Shown here: piece after piece, positions 4,083-13,026 of the stretch
Position numbering within the stretch: the first letter of the stretch is position 1
How the letters are laid out: every line of letters starts with the position of its first letter
Source: a virus
Virus record (IMG/VR): IMGVR_UViG_3300037278_000290
Location: 1 to 22,366 of that record
DNA length: 22,366 nt
Direction: 5' to 3' (one strand)
Translations under genes and position numbers: made by a program
The notes under the pieces: generated by a model
Seen by the model: the letters and a program-made list of their open reading frames with translations, nothing else
What the model was told of the DNA's origin: nothing
Database searches by the model: none

Positions 4083-4282
4083 TTATACTGCTCCTCCAAA
4101 ATCTTAATCACATCTTCATACGGTTTATTTACTGAATTTACGACACAAGCCTCGGCAGTGTGTATGAATATCGCTGTCATACGCACTTTTCCACTCTTGG
4201 TGTACCAAATAGTTATACTAATCGCATCAAGTTTATCACCCATGATAGAGCGCACTTTTCGTTCAAATTGAGAGCGGTTCAT
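4079..4282 (-). CDS. Small conserved-operon protein, unknown
   Basis: 67 aa, with no family recognised. It begins with a basic helix (MNRSQFERKVRSIMGDKLDA), then strand-like segments (ISITIWYT, VRMTAIFI), and ends in an amphipathic helix (PYEDVIKILEEQYK), suggesting a compact alpha/beta fold. The SD AAGGGGAG lies four bases from the ATG. It overlaps both neighbours by 4 nt (ATGA), so it is translationally coupled between the VWA protein and the FtsK-like ATPase and may serve as their partner. Confidence 0.6.
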   Translation of the reverse strand: MNRSQFERKVRSIMGDKLDAISITIWYTKSGKVRMTAIFIHTAEACVVNSVNKPYEDVIKILEEQYK

Positions 4283-5112
4283 ATTTCTCCCCTTTCTACT
4301 TTACCTTTAAAGCTACTGTCAGAAAGCATCAAGCGTTTAGAGGGTGCGAGATATTTAAGGCCACTTTTGATTGAGCCTCTCGTTAGATCAAGAAAAATGC
4401 CTCCTGTCATTTCAGCGATGTGTTTCATTTCAGAGATAGGACCAATGTGATAGTAAGAGGATTCATCCTTATCTGCAATAAAAACCGTATCAATTGGAAT
4501 ACCCATTTCTTTTGCAGTACGGAGGATTTGATCTTTCTTTGAGGTCTGTTCTGGAGAACCATCGCTGAATGCGATTAAGCGCGTGGCCTTTGGCTCTGCG
4601 CGAAGTGCCGCTTCAATTACTTGATAGAGTGGTGTTCCTCCTGTAGCTTCAACAGAAGGTTCTGTTATTTCAGAAGCGAGGAGAATTATATCTGAGGTTA
4701 GAGTGGCTGATTCTATGTTTTTTGGTAGTGATAGGGCGCAATTCTCTTTGTAATCGTATGCACCTTTAGGATTTAGAAGGTGCACCGCCACTGCGGTTGC
4801 GTTTGGGGTGCAATTTTTAAGAAACTCCACAACACCCTGCTTCGCAGCATCTAACTTAGGGCCGTCCATAGAGCCAGAATTGTCGAAGATAATCCGTAGT
4901 CTATCTGGAGCTTCGCTTGGGGAGATAAAGGACTTGGCTCTAGCGAGGGCCGCGTCTTCAGCTTTTACAGTGGAACTGGTCTCGAAGCCTTTGTTTTTAA
5001 AGGCTTCTGCTTTAAGTTGTGCTTCAGCCGCGGCTGCTTGAGCTTTACGTAATTCAATCATTGCAGCTTTAGCTAAGTTATTCCCCTTTGGGGGTGTGAA
5101 TGGAGCGACCAT
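4279..5112 (-). CDS. VWA (von Willebrand factor A) domain protein
   Basis: 277 aa. A helical, Ala/Lys-rich N-terminus (residues 10-65) precedes a VWA domain. The metal-ion-dependent adhesion site is complete: D77-x-S79-x-S81 in DNSGSM, the Thr in TGGTPLY (T160), and the Asp in FSDG (182-185). Strands RLRIIF, ATAVAVHLL, TRLIAFSD and PIDTVFI alternate with helices as expected. VWA proteins bind partners through the metal site and often work beside AAA+ or other ATPases. Here the gene is coupled to an FtsK-type ATPase and follows a J-domain gene, suggesting an assembly or remodelling role, which is inferred. SD GAAGG is present upstream of ATG. Confidence 0.85.
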   Translation of the reverse strand: MVAPFTPPKGNNLAKAAMIELRKAQAAAAEAQLKAEAFKNKGFETSSTVKAEDAALARAKSFISPSEAPDRLRIIFDNSGSMDGPKLDAAKQGVVEFLKNCTPNATAVAVHLLNPKGAYDYKENCALSLPKNIESATLTSDIILLASEITEPSVEATGGTPLYQVIEAALRAEPKATRLIAFSDGSPEQTSKKDQILRTAKEMGIPIDTVFIADKDESSYYHIGPISEMKHIAEMTGGIFLDLTRGSIKSGLKYLAPSKRLMLSDSSFKGKVERGEI

Positions 5113-5186: not shown

Positions 5187-5840
5187 TTAAGCTGGTGTGA
5201 GTGATTTTGTATAGAGCTGATAGAGGTAGTTTAACTCCGCCATCGCAGCTCCATTACCGTTGTTTCTATCTGGATGTAGTTCCATAGCTTTGCGGCGATA
5301 TACTTTCTTAAGCTCGTCGTTGGAAGCACTTTTTACCCAGATTACTTCTTCGTTCAGTTTGAGCGCCAAGGCGTTCCATAGAGCTTCCCCACTTAACTCG
5401 CCTATTGAAGCCGAAGGTTTATAAAAGAATTCTTCTTCTTTAAACTTAATCTCCACCTGCCCTTGGGCCTTCGGCTCTGGCTTCGGTGGGGGTTCCACCC
5501 AGTTTAAGGGAGTTTTATTTTTTACCTTCTCCTCAAGCTTTATAATTTGCTTGATCTGAAGATACTTTAAACCCCCTCCCACGTAGATAGAATTTATTAC
5601 CGCTAAAATCCTTTTCCCTTGTATCCCTAAGAGAGTGGTGATAAAAGTAGCTACGTCATACTCTCTGTTTGAAAGGTTGATTTCTTTAAAGAGTGAACTG
5701 ATAAAGTTAAAGGTAACTTTTTCAGTTTTGTCATAAAACCAAATTGTATTTGTTCTTCCGTCGGAGGACATGACAAATTGATACATATCTTCGTCTGGAT
5801 TTAGAGGGTTTTCATGCACAATTTCGTAATAAAGAACCAC
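5187..5840 (-). CDS. J-domain (DnaJ-like) protein with C-terminal J domain
   Basis: 217 aa from a GTG start; AAGGGG lies 10 nt upstream, and no better ATG is in frame. The C-terminus (about 153-212) is a J domain. LWNALALKLN corresponds to helix I. SNDELKKVYRRKAMELHPDRN gives helix II and the diagnostic H189-P190-D191 loop, followed by helix III (AMAELNYLYQLYTKSL). Residues 1-100 form an unrecognised alpha/beta domain, and about 108-130 is a Pro/Lys linker (PPPKPEPK). J proteins recruit and stimulate host Hsp70 (DnaK). The unusual C-terminal placement means the N-terminal domain would be the cargo binder. It precedes the VWA and FtsK genes in the same direction. Confidence 0.85.
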   Translation of the reverse strand: MVLYYEIVHENPLNPDEDMYQFVMSSDGRTNTIWFYDKTEKVTFNFISSLFKEINLSNREYDVATFITTLLGIQGKRILAVINSIYVGGGLKYLQIKQIIKLEEKVKNKTPLNWVEPPPKPEPKAQGQVEIKFKEEEFFYKPSASIGELSGEALWNALALKLNEEVIWVKSASNDELKKVYRRKAMELHPDRNNGNGAAMAELNYLYQLYTKSLTPA

Positions 5841-9912: not shown

Positions 9913-10785
9913 CTACGCGCTTCCTTTTATTAAATGTAAGTACGCCTCCCGCGCCGCAGCTTGTTGCGCACGTTTTAAAGAGTTTCCAAGTCCCTCAAAA
10001 GAAAAGGAATTATCTTCAACTGAAGTATTCCACCTCACACACACACGAAACATCTTCGCATGATCCGGGCCTTGTTCGGAGAGAGTTGTATATTTCGGTA
10101 TTCCAAGTTTGGCGCCTTGGAGATACTCTTGTAAAAGTGACTTCCAATCTGAGCTTTTTCCGCCTTCGGCTCCTTCGGCGGGATTGAGATTGATAAATTT
10201 AGAAACAAAGTTATCTACAGGATTAGCACTACGCGTAGCACTACGCGTAGCGTCGGTGTTATCAACACAAGTAGCAAGGCGCGGGTTCCCCGACGCTACG
10301 CGGGACGCGATCCAGTCAAGATACATAGCACCTATAAGCGCCTCGACTGTATTAGCAAGCACATTTAGATTCGCCGCCTCACGTTGGACGAGTATATAAA
10401 TATACTGACCTAACTTGAGAGTGCGCCCTACTTCAGCGAGCGTTGTTCGTGATACGATCGAAGATCGTGCTTTAGTTAAAGCCGCCTCACTTGCCTGTGG
10501 CGAAGCTGCATAGAGCCGAAGGCTTACGGCACTCCCTATAAGAGAATCCCCCAGCCACTCCAAACGCTCGTTATCAAGCATAAAACCATCGTACATATCT
10601 GTACGATTGTCTTTAATTTGCTTGGACCTGTTATACGCATTTGCATATGAAGAATGTGTTAGTGCTTGTGTTAAGAGACTCTTATCCCTAAACACATACC
10701 CTAGCTCACTTTCAAGTCTCCTCATAGCATCCCATTGTTCGAGACCGCTTAAAAGTCTTAGAGGTTGTTGTTTGTGGTTATTCAT
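9913..10785 (-). CDS. rnc: Ribonuclease III with dsRNA-binding domain
   Basis: 290 aa from the ATG at 10783-10785 (AGAAGGTGG upstream). The RNase III domain spans about 20-150, with the signature N72-E-R-L-E-W-L-G-D-S81; E73, E76 and D80 match E. coli E38, E41 and D45. The last catalytic motif is A-N-T-V-E-A: E138 matches E117, but N135 stands where E. coli has D114. A 40-residue linker (about 150-190) replaces the usual short one and includes the DNA-repeat-encoded SATRSA. A typical dsRBD follows (192-288: LLQEYLQG...PKY...F...G.GNSLKRAQQAAAREA). It would cleave double-stranded RNA. RNase III is uncommon in phage genomes. It overlaps the 55-aa gene upstream by 8 nt. Confidence 0.9.
   Translation of the reverse strand: MNNHKQQPLRLLSGLEQWDAMRRLESELGYVFRDKSLLTQALTHSSYANAYNRSKQIKDNRTDMYDGFMLDNERLEWLGDSLIGSAVSLRLYAASPQASEAALTKARSSIVSRTTLAEVGRTLKLGQYIYILVQREAANLNVLANTVEALIGAMYLDWIASRVASGNPRLATCVDNTDATRSATRSANPVDNFVSKFINLNPAEGAEGGKSSDWKSLLQEYLQGAKLGIPKYTTLSEQGPDHAKMFRVCVRWNTSVEDNSFSFEGLGNSLKRAQQAAAREAYLHLIKGSA
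10225..10253. repeat. Two 12-bp tandem repeats inside the RNase III linker
   Basis: GCACTACGCGTA occurs twice in tandem (10226-10237, 10238-10249), followed by GCGTC. Each unit contains the palindrome CTACGCGTAG. Related GACGCTACGCG words lie at 10290-10300 and at the 3' end of the gene (9907-9917). The repeat is in frame and encodes the ATRS-ATRS part of the linker. Confidence 0.8.
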
Positions 10786-10945
10786 AAATCCACCTTCTCG
10801 CGCTTGTGCGCGGTGATACGCGAAGGATTGTTCCTGCGTTATTGACATAAACTGCACACACCTCGCGAGAGGCACGCAGTTCCCATATGATAAAAGCACA
10901 CGCTTCTGCTGTGCCGCTGAAGGTTATAGATTGAGTTTGATTCAT
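10778..10945 (-). CDS. Small 55-aa protein upstream of RNase III
   Basis: 55 aa from the ATG at 10943-10945 with GGGAG upstream. The strand-helix-strand pattern is SITFSG, then AEACAFIIWELRASREVCAVYVNNAG with the final strand in TILRVSP. Two Cys residues are present. The basic C-terminus overlaps the RNase III start by 8 nt, so RNase III is probably translated by coupling to this gene. It is the first gene after the promoter at 11019-11048. No family was recognised. Confidence 0.6.
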   Translation of the reverse strand: MNQTQSITFSGTAEACAFIIWELRASREVCAVYVNNAGTILRVSPRTSARRWIYE

Positions 10946-11018: not shown

Positions 11019-11048
11019 AGTGTACGCCGGCGAAGCCGGGTGCGTCAA
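11019..11048 (-). promoter_or_regulatory. Sigma70-type promoter C for the RNase III operon
   Basis: On the minus strand: -35 TTGACG at 11043-11048, an 18-nt spacer that is itself a CCGGCTTCGCCGG hairpin, and -10 TACACT at 11019-11024. It shares its -10 and most of its -35 with promoters A and B. Confidence 0.7.
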
Positions 11049-11093
11049 GCGAAAAGCGCCTAGGGGCGAAGAGCGCAGAGGGCATAAGTGTCC

Positions 11094-11111
11094 TGTTTTC
11101 AACGGCTTGCG
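11094..11111 (-). promoter_or_regulatory. Conserved GTTGAAAACA box, copy C
   Basis: The minus strand reads CGCAAGCCGTTGAAAACA, followed by GGACACTTATGCCC. It forms the left outer arm of the symmetric element and lies about 45 nt upstream of the -35 of promoter C. Confidence 0.55.
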
Positions 11112-11154
11112 GGCCGCACCTGTGCCGGGGGATGAAGTGTCTCCTAATTCCTAT

Positions 11155-11173
11155 GGGGGTATACCCCCTTTTT
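11155..11173 (+). terminator. Perfect palindrome followed by T-run
   Basis: GGGGGTATACCCCC (11155-11168) is followed by TTTTTG on the plus strand, the form of a short intrinsic terminator for rightward RNA. No rightward gene lies nearby, so it may instead limit antisense transcripts or belong to the origin structure. Confidence 0.35.
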
Positions 11174-11196
11174 GACCCCTTTTGAGTCTAAGGTGC

Positions 11197-11245
11197 CAAC
11201 TTATACCCTTGAACTATCTCTTAAATACCTCAAGGGTATAAGTTG
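11197..11245. repeat. 16-bp perfect inverted repeat
   Basis: CAACTTATACCCTTGA at 11197-11212 and its exact complement at 11230-11245 flank a 17-nt loop. It lies within the left half of the symmetric element, just before the polypyrimidine tract. It could be a cruciform, an initiator site or an RNA hairpin. Confidence 0.85.
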
Positions 11246-11247
11246 AT

Positions 11248-11280
11248 TCCTTCTCCTTCTTTATATCCTTCTCCTTCTTT
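11248..11280. repeat. Polypyrimidine direct repeat
   Basis: TCCTTCTCCTTCTTT occurs at 11248-11262 and again at 11266-11280, an 18-nt period. It is followed by an AT-only stretch with a run of ten T residues. Strand-biased tracts beside AT-rich DNA are common in unwinding elements. Confidence 0.7.
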
Positions 11281-11434
11281 TTCTTCTATCTATTACTTAT
11301 TATTATATATATATTTTTTTTTTATTTTCTATACATATAAATAACTATTAATAAGGAACATCTATAGGATTTGGCCGGGAGAGGCAGGGGGGCCATAGGA
11401 AATAGGAGACACTTGCGCTGAGCGCGGAGAGAGA

Positions 11435-11469
11435 GGGCGTAAAGCGTTGAAAACAAAGGACTTACGCCC
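11435..11469. promoter_or_regulatory. GTTGAAAACA box copy D within an 8-bp inverted repeat
   Basis: GGGCGTAA (11435-11442) and TTACGCCC (11462-11469) are perfect inverted repeats flanking CGTTGAAAAC. This copy is opposite in orientation to copies A-C, and no promoter-like sequence follows it. It forms the right outer arm of the symmetric element. Confidence 0.55.
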
Positions 11470-11528
11470 CTACGGGGCTGCCCCACTCGAACGTTTTATG
11501 CACCCACGCCCTGATTTCGCCAAATTCA

Positions 11529-11551
11529 CCTCTTTCATCTTACCGATGATA
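11529..11551. repeat. 23-bp direct repeat, copy 1
   Basis: Identical to 12116-12138 (core TTTCATCTTACCGATGATA). Copy 1 covers the stop codon of the 77-aa gene. Copy 2 encodes IIGKMKEA of the 178-aa protein. Confidence 0.85.
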
Positions 11552-11768
11552 CGCAGCTTGATTCACATTTTCTCCGTATTTGTTCCCAGATATAATTCGC
11601 CACAAATCTAGCATAAGGTGGCATTTGTTGCAACTCATCCCATAACTCAGGGAGAAATTCTCCTAGAGATTGTGTCCTGATTTTATCTACAATTGGTATT
11701 GTAGAATGGTTTAGATTCGACGCTCGCAATGCGCGAGCGCTGTGGATTGGATCGAATGCGCTACTCAT
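11535..11768 (-). CDS. Unknown 77-aa protein with a repeat-derived 3' end
   Basis: 77 aa from the ATG at 11766-11768 with GGAGG six bases upstream. A longer frame starts inside tandem repeats and is rejected. The N-terminus is polar (FDPIHSARALRASNLNHS). The rest is helical with aromatic residues (EFLPELWDELQQMPPYARFV). The last codons (CVSSVR, stop) lie in a 23-bp sequence that also occurs, in another frame, inside the upstream 178-aa gene. The original C-terminus may have been lost by recombination. No family was recognised. Confidence 0.5.
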   Translation of the reverse strand: MSSAFDPIHSARALRASNLNHSTIPIVDKIRTQSLGEFLPELWDELQQMPPYARFVANYIWEQIRRKCESSCVSSVR

Positions 11769-11782
11769 ATCATACCTCCATG

Positions 11783-11845
11783 CTAACCCATGAATCATTG
11801 ACTCATGGGTTAGAGTTGAGGTACTCATGGGTTAGAGTTGAGGTA
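11783..11845. repeat. Tandem 22-nt repeats and an 11-bp inverted repeat in the 77-aa gene leader
   Basis: A unit with core ACTCATGGGTTAGAGTTGAG occurs at 11801-11823 and 11823-11845. CTAACCCATGA at 11783-11793 is the exact complement of TCATGGGTTAG in both copies (11803-11813 and 11825-11835), so the leader RNA can form either of two hairpins just before the Shine-Dalgarno. The block starts a few bases after the stop of the 178-aa gene. Confidence 0.8.
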
Positions 11846-11849
11846 AGAC

Positions 11850-12386
11850 TTAGTTGTTGTCGAACACCTTCTGTACCTGCGCGATGCGTTCATCGCTTGA
11901 AGCGCAATCCAATGCATTCTTTGTTTGCAGCCATCCAATCACATCTTTATGCTTTGACTTGGGAATTTCCCCCGCGAGTTTCGCCAAAGACTTGATTGCG
12001 TGTTCTTGAATGGGTTTAACTTCGTGGAATACTTGCCGAGCGTAGCTCAGAGTTGAAGACTTCCATTCAACCCCACGACTACGCCATACACTCGCAACTC
12101 TTTCGTCTTCCGCTGCCTCTTTCATCTTACCGATGATAAAGAGTTCAGCGGAAGACGCAGAAGGATACTCTTTCGCCAAAGACTCAATTTCTTTGGCCTT
12201 ATACCGCACACTCAACAGTCCACTCAAGTATCCAATCTCAATCTCATTGAATACACTTAGTAGATTGAACACCGTAGCATCCTTCGAGGATGCAACCGCA
12301 TCCTTCGATGATACGATTGATACTGTTGACTGAGGTACACTCACGTTAGCCGATGCTAACGCATCTTTCAATGTTCCGTTTGACAT
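11850..12386 (-). CDS. Unknown 178-aa helical protein
   Basis: 178 aa from the ATG at 12384-12386 with GAGGAG upstream. The longer in-frame extension lies within the leader inverted repeat and is rejected. The N-terminus is Ser/Val-rich with two SSKDA repeats (about 25-38). The rest is helical and charged: FNEIEIGYLSGLLSVRYKAK, ELFIIGKMKEAAEDERVASV, HEVKPIQEHAIKSLAKLAGE, KHKDVIGWLQTKNALD. It is the first leftward gene from the strand-switch region and so could be an early regulator, but no DNA-binding motif is clear. Confidence 0.6.
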   Translation of the reverse strand: MSNGTLKDALASANVSVPQSTVSIVSSKDAVASSKDATVFNLLSVFNEIEIGYLSGLLSVRYKAKEIESLAKEYPSASSAELFIIGKMKEAAEDERVASVWRSRGVEWKSSTLSYARQVFHEVKPIQEHAIKSLAKLAGEIPKSKHKDVIGWLQTKNALDCASSDERIAQVQKVFDNN

Positions 12387-12403
12387 GATATTCTCCTCTT
12401 GCA

Positions 12404-12510
12404 TATGGGCAAGGATGGACCTAACAGGCGATACAGCTATCCACACGAATGGGCACGTCTAATATTACCGTGCATGGTATCTTTATCTGTTAGGTCCATC
12501 CTCACCCATA
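12404..12510. repeat. Long inverted repeat in the 5' leader of the 178-aa gene
   Basis: Arms 12404-12427 and 12487-12510 are complementary at 22 of 24 positions (core AGGATGGACCTAACAG). They enclose 59 nt that contains a further GCACG/CGTGC pair. One arm ends about 17 nt from the ATG, just before the SD, so the leader RNA of the 178-aa gene would carry a stem of about 24 bp at its ribosome-binding site. Confidence 0.8.
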
Positions 12511-12777: not shown

Positions 12778-12853
12778 TAACTCATACGACTAACTACACT
12801 GAGTTACTAACTCATAACTCCAACTGACTTAGTAACTCCCTAACTCATAACTC
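12778..12853. repeat. TAACTC iteron-like array
   Basis: TAACTC occurs at 12778, 12808, 12815, 12833, 12841 and 12848, with one inverted GAGTTA at 12801. CTAACTCATAACTCC is repeated exactly at 12807-12821 and 12840-12854. It is likely a protein-binding array or a product of local duplication. Confidence 0.6.
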
Positions 12854-12941
12854 CTGATAAGTGGAGGGTACCCTTCTTAAAAAATCGAATCACGCATAAT
12901 TTGCTGGGGACTCAGCTTACAATTTTTTGGTAAATTTCACT

Positions 12942-12971
12942 TTATAGGTTATATTAAGAAATTAATATAAT
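12942..12971 (+). promoter_or_regulatory. Candidate rightward promoter for the packaging/head operon
   Basis: A perfect -10 TATAAT at 12966-12971 lies in AT-rich DNA. The -35 (TTATAG at 18 nt spacing, or TTTATA at 19) is weak. An alternative upstream pair is TTGGTA-17-TATATT. It lies about 175 nt before the first plus-strand gene. A phage late activator may be needed. Confidence 0.4.
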
Positions 12972-12972
12972 C

Positions 12973-13026
12973 AAATGCGTCAACTGAGTCAAATGCGTCA
13001 ATTGAGTCAAATGCGTCAACTGAGTT
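12973..13026. repeat. Three 18-bp tandem repeats
   Basis: Units at 12973-12990, 12991-13008 and 13009-13026 read AAATGCGTCAACTGAGTC with one or two changes. They start right after the -10 of the candidate promoter. The core GACTCAGTTGACGCA on the other strand is identical to 7095-7109. Confidence 0.9.

Follow-up and report, generated by a model that had tools for sequence, protein, structure and literature searches.

A self-complementary noncoding element at a fixed address in a family of uncultured soil phages: a putative structure-dependent replication-initiation region

Introduction

For most uncultured phages, to our knowledge, the way in which DNA replication starts is unknown. Archaeal and bacterial origins of the oriC type have an AT-rich unwinding region accompanied by initiator boxes. 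Phages are also associated with large RNAs collected in Rfam, for example ROOL and GOLLD, which are long, noncoding and structured.

Other described systems rely on noncoding DNA of different designs. The sso is folded single-stranded DNA used by host RNA polymerase, and its sequence is replaceable if the structure is kept (PMC4595007). In the mitochondrial OriL, priming begins in the T-stretch of a hairpin loop (PMC4256270). The origin of phage c2 is a noncoding region lying beside early promoters (PMC7150918).

Here we describe a noncoding element found in the window, that is, the whole stretch of DNA analysed (22,366 bases, a fragment of a tailed phage), and in related uncultured phages. 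From its architecture we tentatively read it as a putative cis-acting, structure-dependent replication-initiation region of the phage family.

Results

On the plus strand of the window, from 13.3 kb onward, lie genes for terminase, portal-like and major head proteins, and to the left of these lie minus-strand genes. The element is a single imperfect 77-nt inverted repeat whose copies enclose a 236-nt interior with a 32-nt AT-only core (Table 1). A sequence-only reading of this DNA had reported two inverted words with equal spacing on either side, and both are present: GTTTTCAACG returns inverted as CGTTGAAAAC at 11445-11454, and the 22-nt arm ending the left copy recurs inverted at 11393-11414 with 95% complementarity, the gap being exactly 30 nt on both sides and its filler nearly unrelated. 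The additional words that it placed outside the arms also exist (GGGCATAAGT at 11080-11089 and ACTTACGCCC at 11460-11469), but they belong to the same arms, as their outer ends. All paired words have the coordinate sum 22549 and so share one axis with zero indels; equal spacing therefore only restates one inverted repeat and is no independent fact. The two protein-binding modules deduced from that spacing are not supported, since the arms form one inverted repeat and arm letters are swapped wholesale among close relatives. The core features described earlier, an AT-only stretch, an inner inverted repeat and a pyrimidine tract from 11248, were recovered, and the general idea of a noncoding functional element with matched inverted arms around an AT core holds up. 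Arm-to-arm local alignment in the window scores 59, whereas 200 shuffles reached 45 at most. The minus strand of the element folds at -154 kcal/mol (z -9.1), a value that 0 of 100 shuffles equalled, and the plus strand has z -6.1. Both arm matching and folding are far beyond those of shuffled sequence, i.e. above chance.

Table 1. Features of the element and its surroundings in the window.
Feature	Position	Strand	Description
Left repeat copy (3' arm on minus strand)	11080..11156		GGGCATAAGT; GTTTTCAACG at 11095-11104; 30-nt diverged filler; AAGTGTCTCCTAATTCCTATGG at 11135-11156
Right repeat copy (5' arm on minus strand)	11393..11469		Axis shared with left copy
AT-only core, 32 nt	11297..11328	-	Minus strand AAAATAAAAAAAAAATATATATATAATAATAA; polar A-run/TAA core common to relatives
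Inner hairpin	11190-11217 / 11225-11252		28 nt, 82% complementary; placement relative to core varies in relatives
CT tract	11427..11436	-	Minus strand CCTCTCTCTC; -124 from core
Sigma70-like promoter (predicted)	11019..11048	-	TTGACG 11043-11048, 18-nt spacer, TACACT 11019-11024; immediately outside left arm
RNase III gene	9913..10899	-	Encodes catalytic domain plus dsRBD; lies downstream of the sigma70-like promoter
orfA	11535..11828	-	97 aa; next minus-strand gene upstream of element; L008 homologue, 45%
orfB	11850..12446	-	Start probably 12386; homologue or position forms upstream border of noncoding gap in relatives

The predicted sigma70-like promoter of the window is the counterpart of the CTTGACA promoters of relatives, and we infer that it drives the RNase III operon. 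RNase III was not found in ten related records, and the slot that its gene occupies holds, in relatives, a conserved protein of 120-200 aa with no assigned function. Autoregulation of RNase III by the hairpin was considered and is weakened, given that the promoter sits between element and gene and that relatives lack RNase III. Elsewhere in the window, a perfect tandem 22-mer (ACTCATGGGTTAGAGTTGAGGT) spans the start of orfA (11801-11845), and minus-strand genes at 4279-5112 and 5187-5840 encode VWA-domain and DnaJ-like proteins adjoining an FtsK-like ATPase, an order kept in G006.

Relatives were collected by TerL scans of uncultured viral contigs. In some 20 related uncultured phages, with TerL identities as low as ~52%, the corresponding interval is occupied by a single noncoding element built to the same plan. 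Read along the minus strand, it consists of a CTCTCTC tract, a 5' arm, a core of poly-A and TAATAATA, a 3' arm complementary to the 5' arm of the same phage, and a CTTGACA promoter ~200 nt from the core. It lies on the minus strand ~1.5-2.9 kb upstream of terS, in a noncoding gap (mostly 510-640 nt in the family) between an orfB-like gene and the next gene. Five genomes (G005, G006, G008, G011 and G012) are complete, with ends that self-overlap by 123-127 nt and lengths of 48-50 kb; the family is one of ~48-kb, circularly assembling uncultured soil phages. A DNA search of named phage genomes gave no match, and the nearest TerL relatives among annotated phages are remote (20-27% identical). When the arms and their spacing were sought in similar phages, the sequence-only reading was upheld in part: the letters are absent, but the architecture is present at the same address.

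The bacterial-genome search gave only one MAG-binned phage contig, and so no host was learned. This contig, L094 (JARLJL010000016.1, 47.7 kb), is a circular family phage with a 141-nt end overlap that was probably binned with the Sulfuriferula MAG by chance; its element has arms and promoter but, by the rule applied, lacks a CT tract. In four records (L006, L008, L010 and L081) a contig end falls inside the element, within an arm or the A-run. A physical genome end at the element was nevertheless rejected: the L010 contig breaks in the A-run yet overlaps itself by 127 nt, so that the genome is circular or permuted and the break appears to be an assembly effect.

Word counts on the minus strand of 20 elements, compared with dinucleotide shuffles, define a signature around the core. 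CTCTCTC occurs in 18 of the 20 (0.8 expected), CTTGACA in 14 (0.5 expected) and GTTTTCA in 8 (0.5 expected), and A-runs with TAATAATA also belong to the signature; an A-run of at least 10 is found on the minus strand in 11/19 elements and on the plus strand in 1/19. Relative to the core, the CT tract of relatives lies mostly at -200 to -285 (closer in the window; Table 1), a second CT tract often at +37 to +67, and a recurring module (GTTTTCA/TGAAAAC or TGATTC) near -150 and at +140 to +210. TTGACA falls at +172 to +230 in relatives and the TTGACG of the window at +264. Core, CT tract and promoter are strand-polar in most elements, but in L011 the core is inverted and the CT tract missing. A rule based on this signature picks the interval once per genome, and almost nothing else, in 670 kb, a measure of specificity within the phages on which the rule was built and not an independent test; the elements of G006, with its inverted core and no CT tract, and of G011 escape it. 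The architecture was also sought in other viruses by a spacing scan of all viral contigs, and the non-family matches, which have poor arms, look like chance.

The polarity of core and CT tract indicates that one strand matters. The same polarity, shared by the promoter, counts in favour of a ~400-nt structured noncoding RNA read from the minus strand, whose long imperfect hairpin would have an A-rich loop (the A-run and AAUAAUAA repeats) and CU-rich single strands and which would act in trans or as a replication primer. Own-arm complementarity and strong folding in nearly all elements (minus-strand mean z -7.8) also agree with such an RNA, which we consider less likely than a replication start but take seriously as a competing explanation. 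The plus strand folds almost as well (mean z -6.5), and composition may account for the slightly better folding of the minus strand. Upstream of the 5' arm no TTGACA-type promoter was found in the elements, most of which have the downstream CTTGACA promoter, and Rfam contains no family matching the element.

Mismatches within the arms bear on the same question. In an RNA helix under selection, G.U mismatches should far outnumber A.C mismatches, a general expectation that is not calibrated for these elements. Here, isolated arm mismatches comprise 25 G.U and 18 A.C, or 11 and 10 with stricter flanks, and the 101 G.U mismatches observed compare with 94 expected from composition. A G.U:A.C ratio of 5:1 is excluded at ~1e-4, and one of 2:1 is compatible with the counts. 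A raw G.U excess (148 vs 97, p 7e-4) disappeared after composition control and removal of the low-complexity L011. Because G.U shows no excess over A.C beyond composition, RNA pairing is not an evident constraint, and we lean towards a structure used at the DNA level over an RNA helix.

Arms agree within a phage and share little between phages. The arm-to-arm score is above all 200 shuffles in 14/19 elements; L026, L070 and L077 reach only the 95% level of the shuffles, and L060 and L021 fall below it. When all left arms were compared with all right arms over 25 elements, a set that includes close relatives and so does not amount to 25 independent events, own pairs averaged 58 and foreign pairs 23, and 0 of 20,000 permutations reached the own total.

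The L033 clade displays this pattern at short evolutionary range. OrfB, TerS and TerL are 83-98% identical across most of the clade, while both arms are replaced and core, CT tract and promoter are retained. One arm type is carried by L116 (the L033 phage), L119 (the L046 phage) and L050, a second by L122, L123 and L081, and L126 (the L038 phage) is a mosaic; each type folds into its own long-range helix. In L122 and L081, pairing of the 5' arm is better with the L126 3' arm than with the 3' arm of the same phage, which suggests that recombination shuffles arms and that perfect pairing is not strictly needed. Arm mosaics of this kind, as though recombination had shuffled the arms, are seen at L126:3044-3444, L122:3055-3444 and L081:1-374.

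The protein encoded downstream also follows arm type, with ~63% identity between types and 81-89% within a type. It could be a co-evolving binder, or it could simply lie in the same exchanged block. The first possibility belongs to a reading in which a phage protein (initiator, repressor or partition-like) would bind inverted sites paired in the arms, on either side of an AT-rich unwinding region, and would change along with these sites. The matching blocks with equal-length diverged spacers and the recurring GTTTTCA/TGAAAAC or TGATTC module fit such sites. However, block sequences are unconserved between phages, only a single short module is found again, in roughly half of the phages, the joint difference of arm type and downstream gene may reflect a linked recombination block, and the downstream gene of the window phage encodes RNase III instead. 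We regard a binding-site array as distinctly unlikely.

More improbable still is a transcription boundary, a terminator plus insulator that would separate the orfB transcript from the early operon and have no part in replication. In most relatives hairpins do follow orfB and the promoter follows the element, but a terminator would require neither arms of 100-200 nt nor a polar A/T core nor strictly one copy per genome. We consider it very improbable that the element is a pac site for packaging, recognised by the small terminase subunit. Such a site would accord with the distance of 1.5-2.9 kb from terS in all phages; arms replaced despite near-identical TerS (95-97% between L033 and L081/L122) make a single conserved, sequence-specific binder such as TerS an unlikely arm reader, although the core or CT tract could still be read. 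The miniature mobile element that the sequence-only reading had named as its main alternative has inverted ends around a noncoding interior and can be dismissed: the address is the same in all relatives with one copy per genome, no target-site duplication flanks the arms (AGAGCGCAGA on the left, CTACGGGGCT on the right), the inner arm is found in no other phage, and arms differ between phages.

Replication was approached through skew, sequence boxes and proteins. Cumulative GC skew had been suggested as an origin marker; its turning points follow gene orientation and give no independent mark. In 8 complete or near-complete genomes the skew minimum falls to the right of the core, at a distance of 0-5.8 kb, and the maximum tracks the gene-orientation switch and not the core antipode; the element itself lies near the divergence of two gene blocks. 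Skew is therefore compatible with a nearby origin and does not point to the element. No DnaA boxes are conserved near the element across relatives. Iteron-like tandem repeats occur in the divergent orfB/terS intergenic region of the window (12791-12846, a 25-mer x2.2; 12971-13025, TCAAATGCGTCAACTGAG x3.1); as a candidate for the real origin, the repeats at 12791-13025 were rejected because they are not conserved in relatives.

Proteins of the family include a family-A DNA polymerase, an exonuclease encoded by a separate gene, a DUF3987 protein, an AAA_24 ATPase and a PD-(D/E)XK nuclease. At L092:882-4515, DNA polymerase A is split over two genes, one for the exonuclease and one for the polymerase, next to HNH endonuclease genes. 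Among the G006 and window proteins that were searched against Pfam, none could be recognised as a Rep, a relaxase or a known initiator.

Discussion

If the element is a replication start, the region would become single-stranded through unwinding of the AT core or strand displacement. Folding of the single-stranded arms could then produce a long, imperfect hairpin with a plus-strand T-run exposed in its loop. At the folded site, RNA polymerase or primase would synthesise a primer for use by the family-A DNA polymerase of the phage. Arm complementarity would count for more than arm sequence, which would explain why both arms change together.

This replication reading is favoured by the same architecture and address across the family, by own arms that match around a polar A/T core, and by joint replacement of the arms while core, CT tract and promoter stay, with no G.U excess. 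The family-A DNA polymerase, exonuclease and DUF3987 protein, the nearby skew minimum and the precedents of sso, OriL and c2 also speak for it. Against it count skew maxima at the orientation switch, the failure to recognise an initiator in the searched proteins, weak arms in L021, L026, L060, L070 and L077, mosaics that self-pair poorly, and the inverted core and missing CT tract of L011. A bolder proposal, possible if somewhat doubtful, is that a replication start (or an RNA) is set across the family by architecture alone, recognised by its shape, with near-free arm letters, coordinated change and a polar A/T loop.

As an origin candidate, the element is concrete and clonable: it is single-copy, has a fixed address and carries a simple signature of an AT core, a CT tract near -200, CTTGACA near +200 and arms that complement each other. 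It also illustrates that architecture can reveal a conserved noncoding element to which sequence search is blind.

Among known systems, origins of the oriC type resemble the element in having an AT-rich core flanked by inverted sequence and differ from it in their boxes, as the element contains neither DnaA boxes nor conserved initiator boxes. With ROOL and GOLLD it shares a long structured noncoding region in phages; unlike them, it is a single long hairpin and not multibranched, lacks an Rfam match and shows no RNA-type mismatch bias. The sso, OriL and c2 origins are analogies of mechanism and not memberships, each having at least one defining feature that the element lacks or shows only doubtfully. 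Like the sso of rolling-circle plasmids and ICEBs1, the element is a noncoding region that folds into imperfect stem-loops and has a sequence replaceable with structure retained. An sso is orientation-specific, and core, CT tract and promoter are polar in most of the elements, though the core is inverted in L011; the arms of the element, however, are longer, and a rolling-circle Rep or relaxase was not recognised in the proteins searched (PMC4595007). OriL shares with it a hairpin whose loop carries a T-stretch on one strand; in contrast to the short stem of OriL, the arms of the element measure 80-200 nt, and no single-subunit RNA polymerase was seen in the examined proteins (PMC4256270). Finally, c2-type origins have two flanking promoters, whereas in the element the downstream promoter alone is recognisable, yet the origins of lactococcal c2 and other Ceduovirus phages are, like the element, noncoding, placed beside early promoters and variable in sequence between phage groups (PMC7150918).
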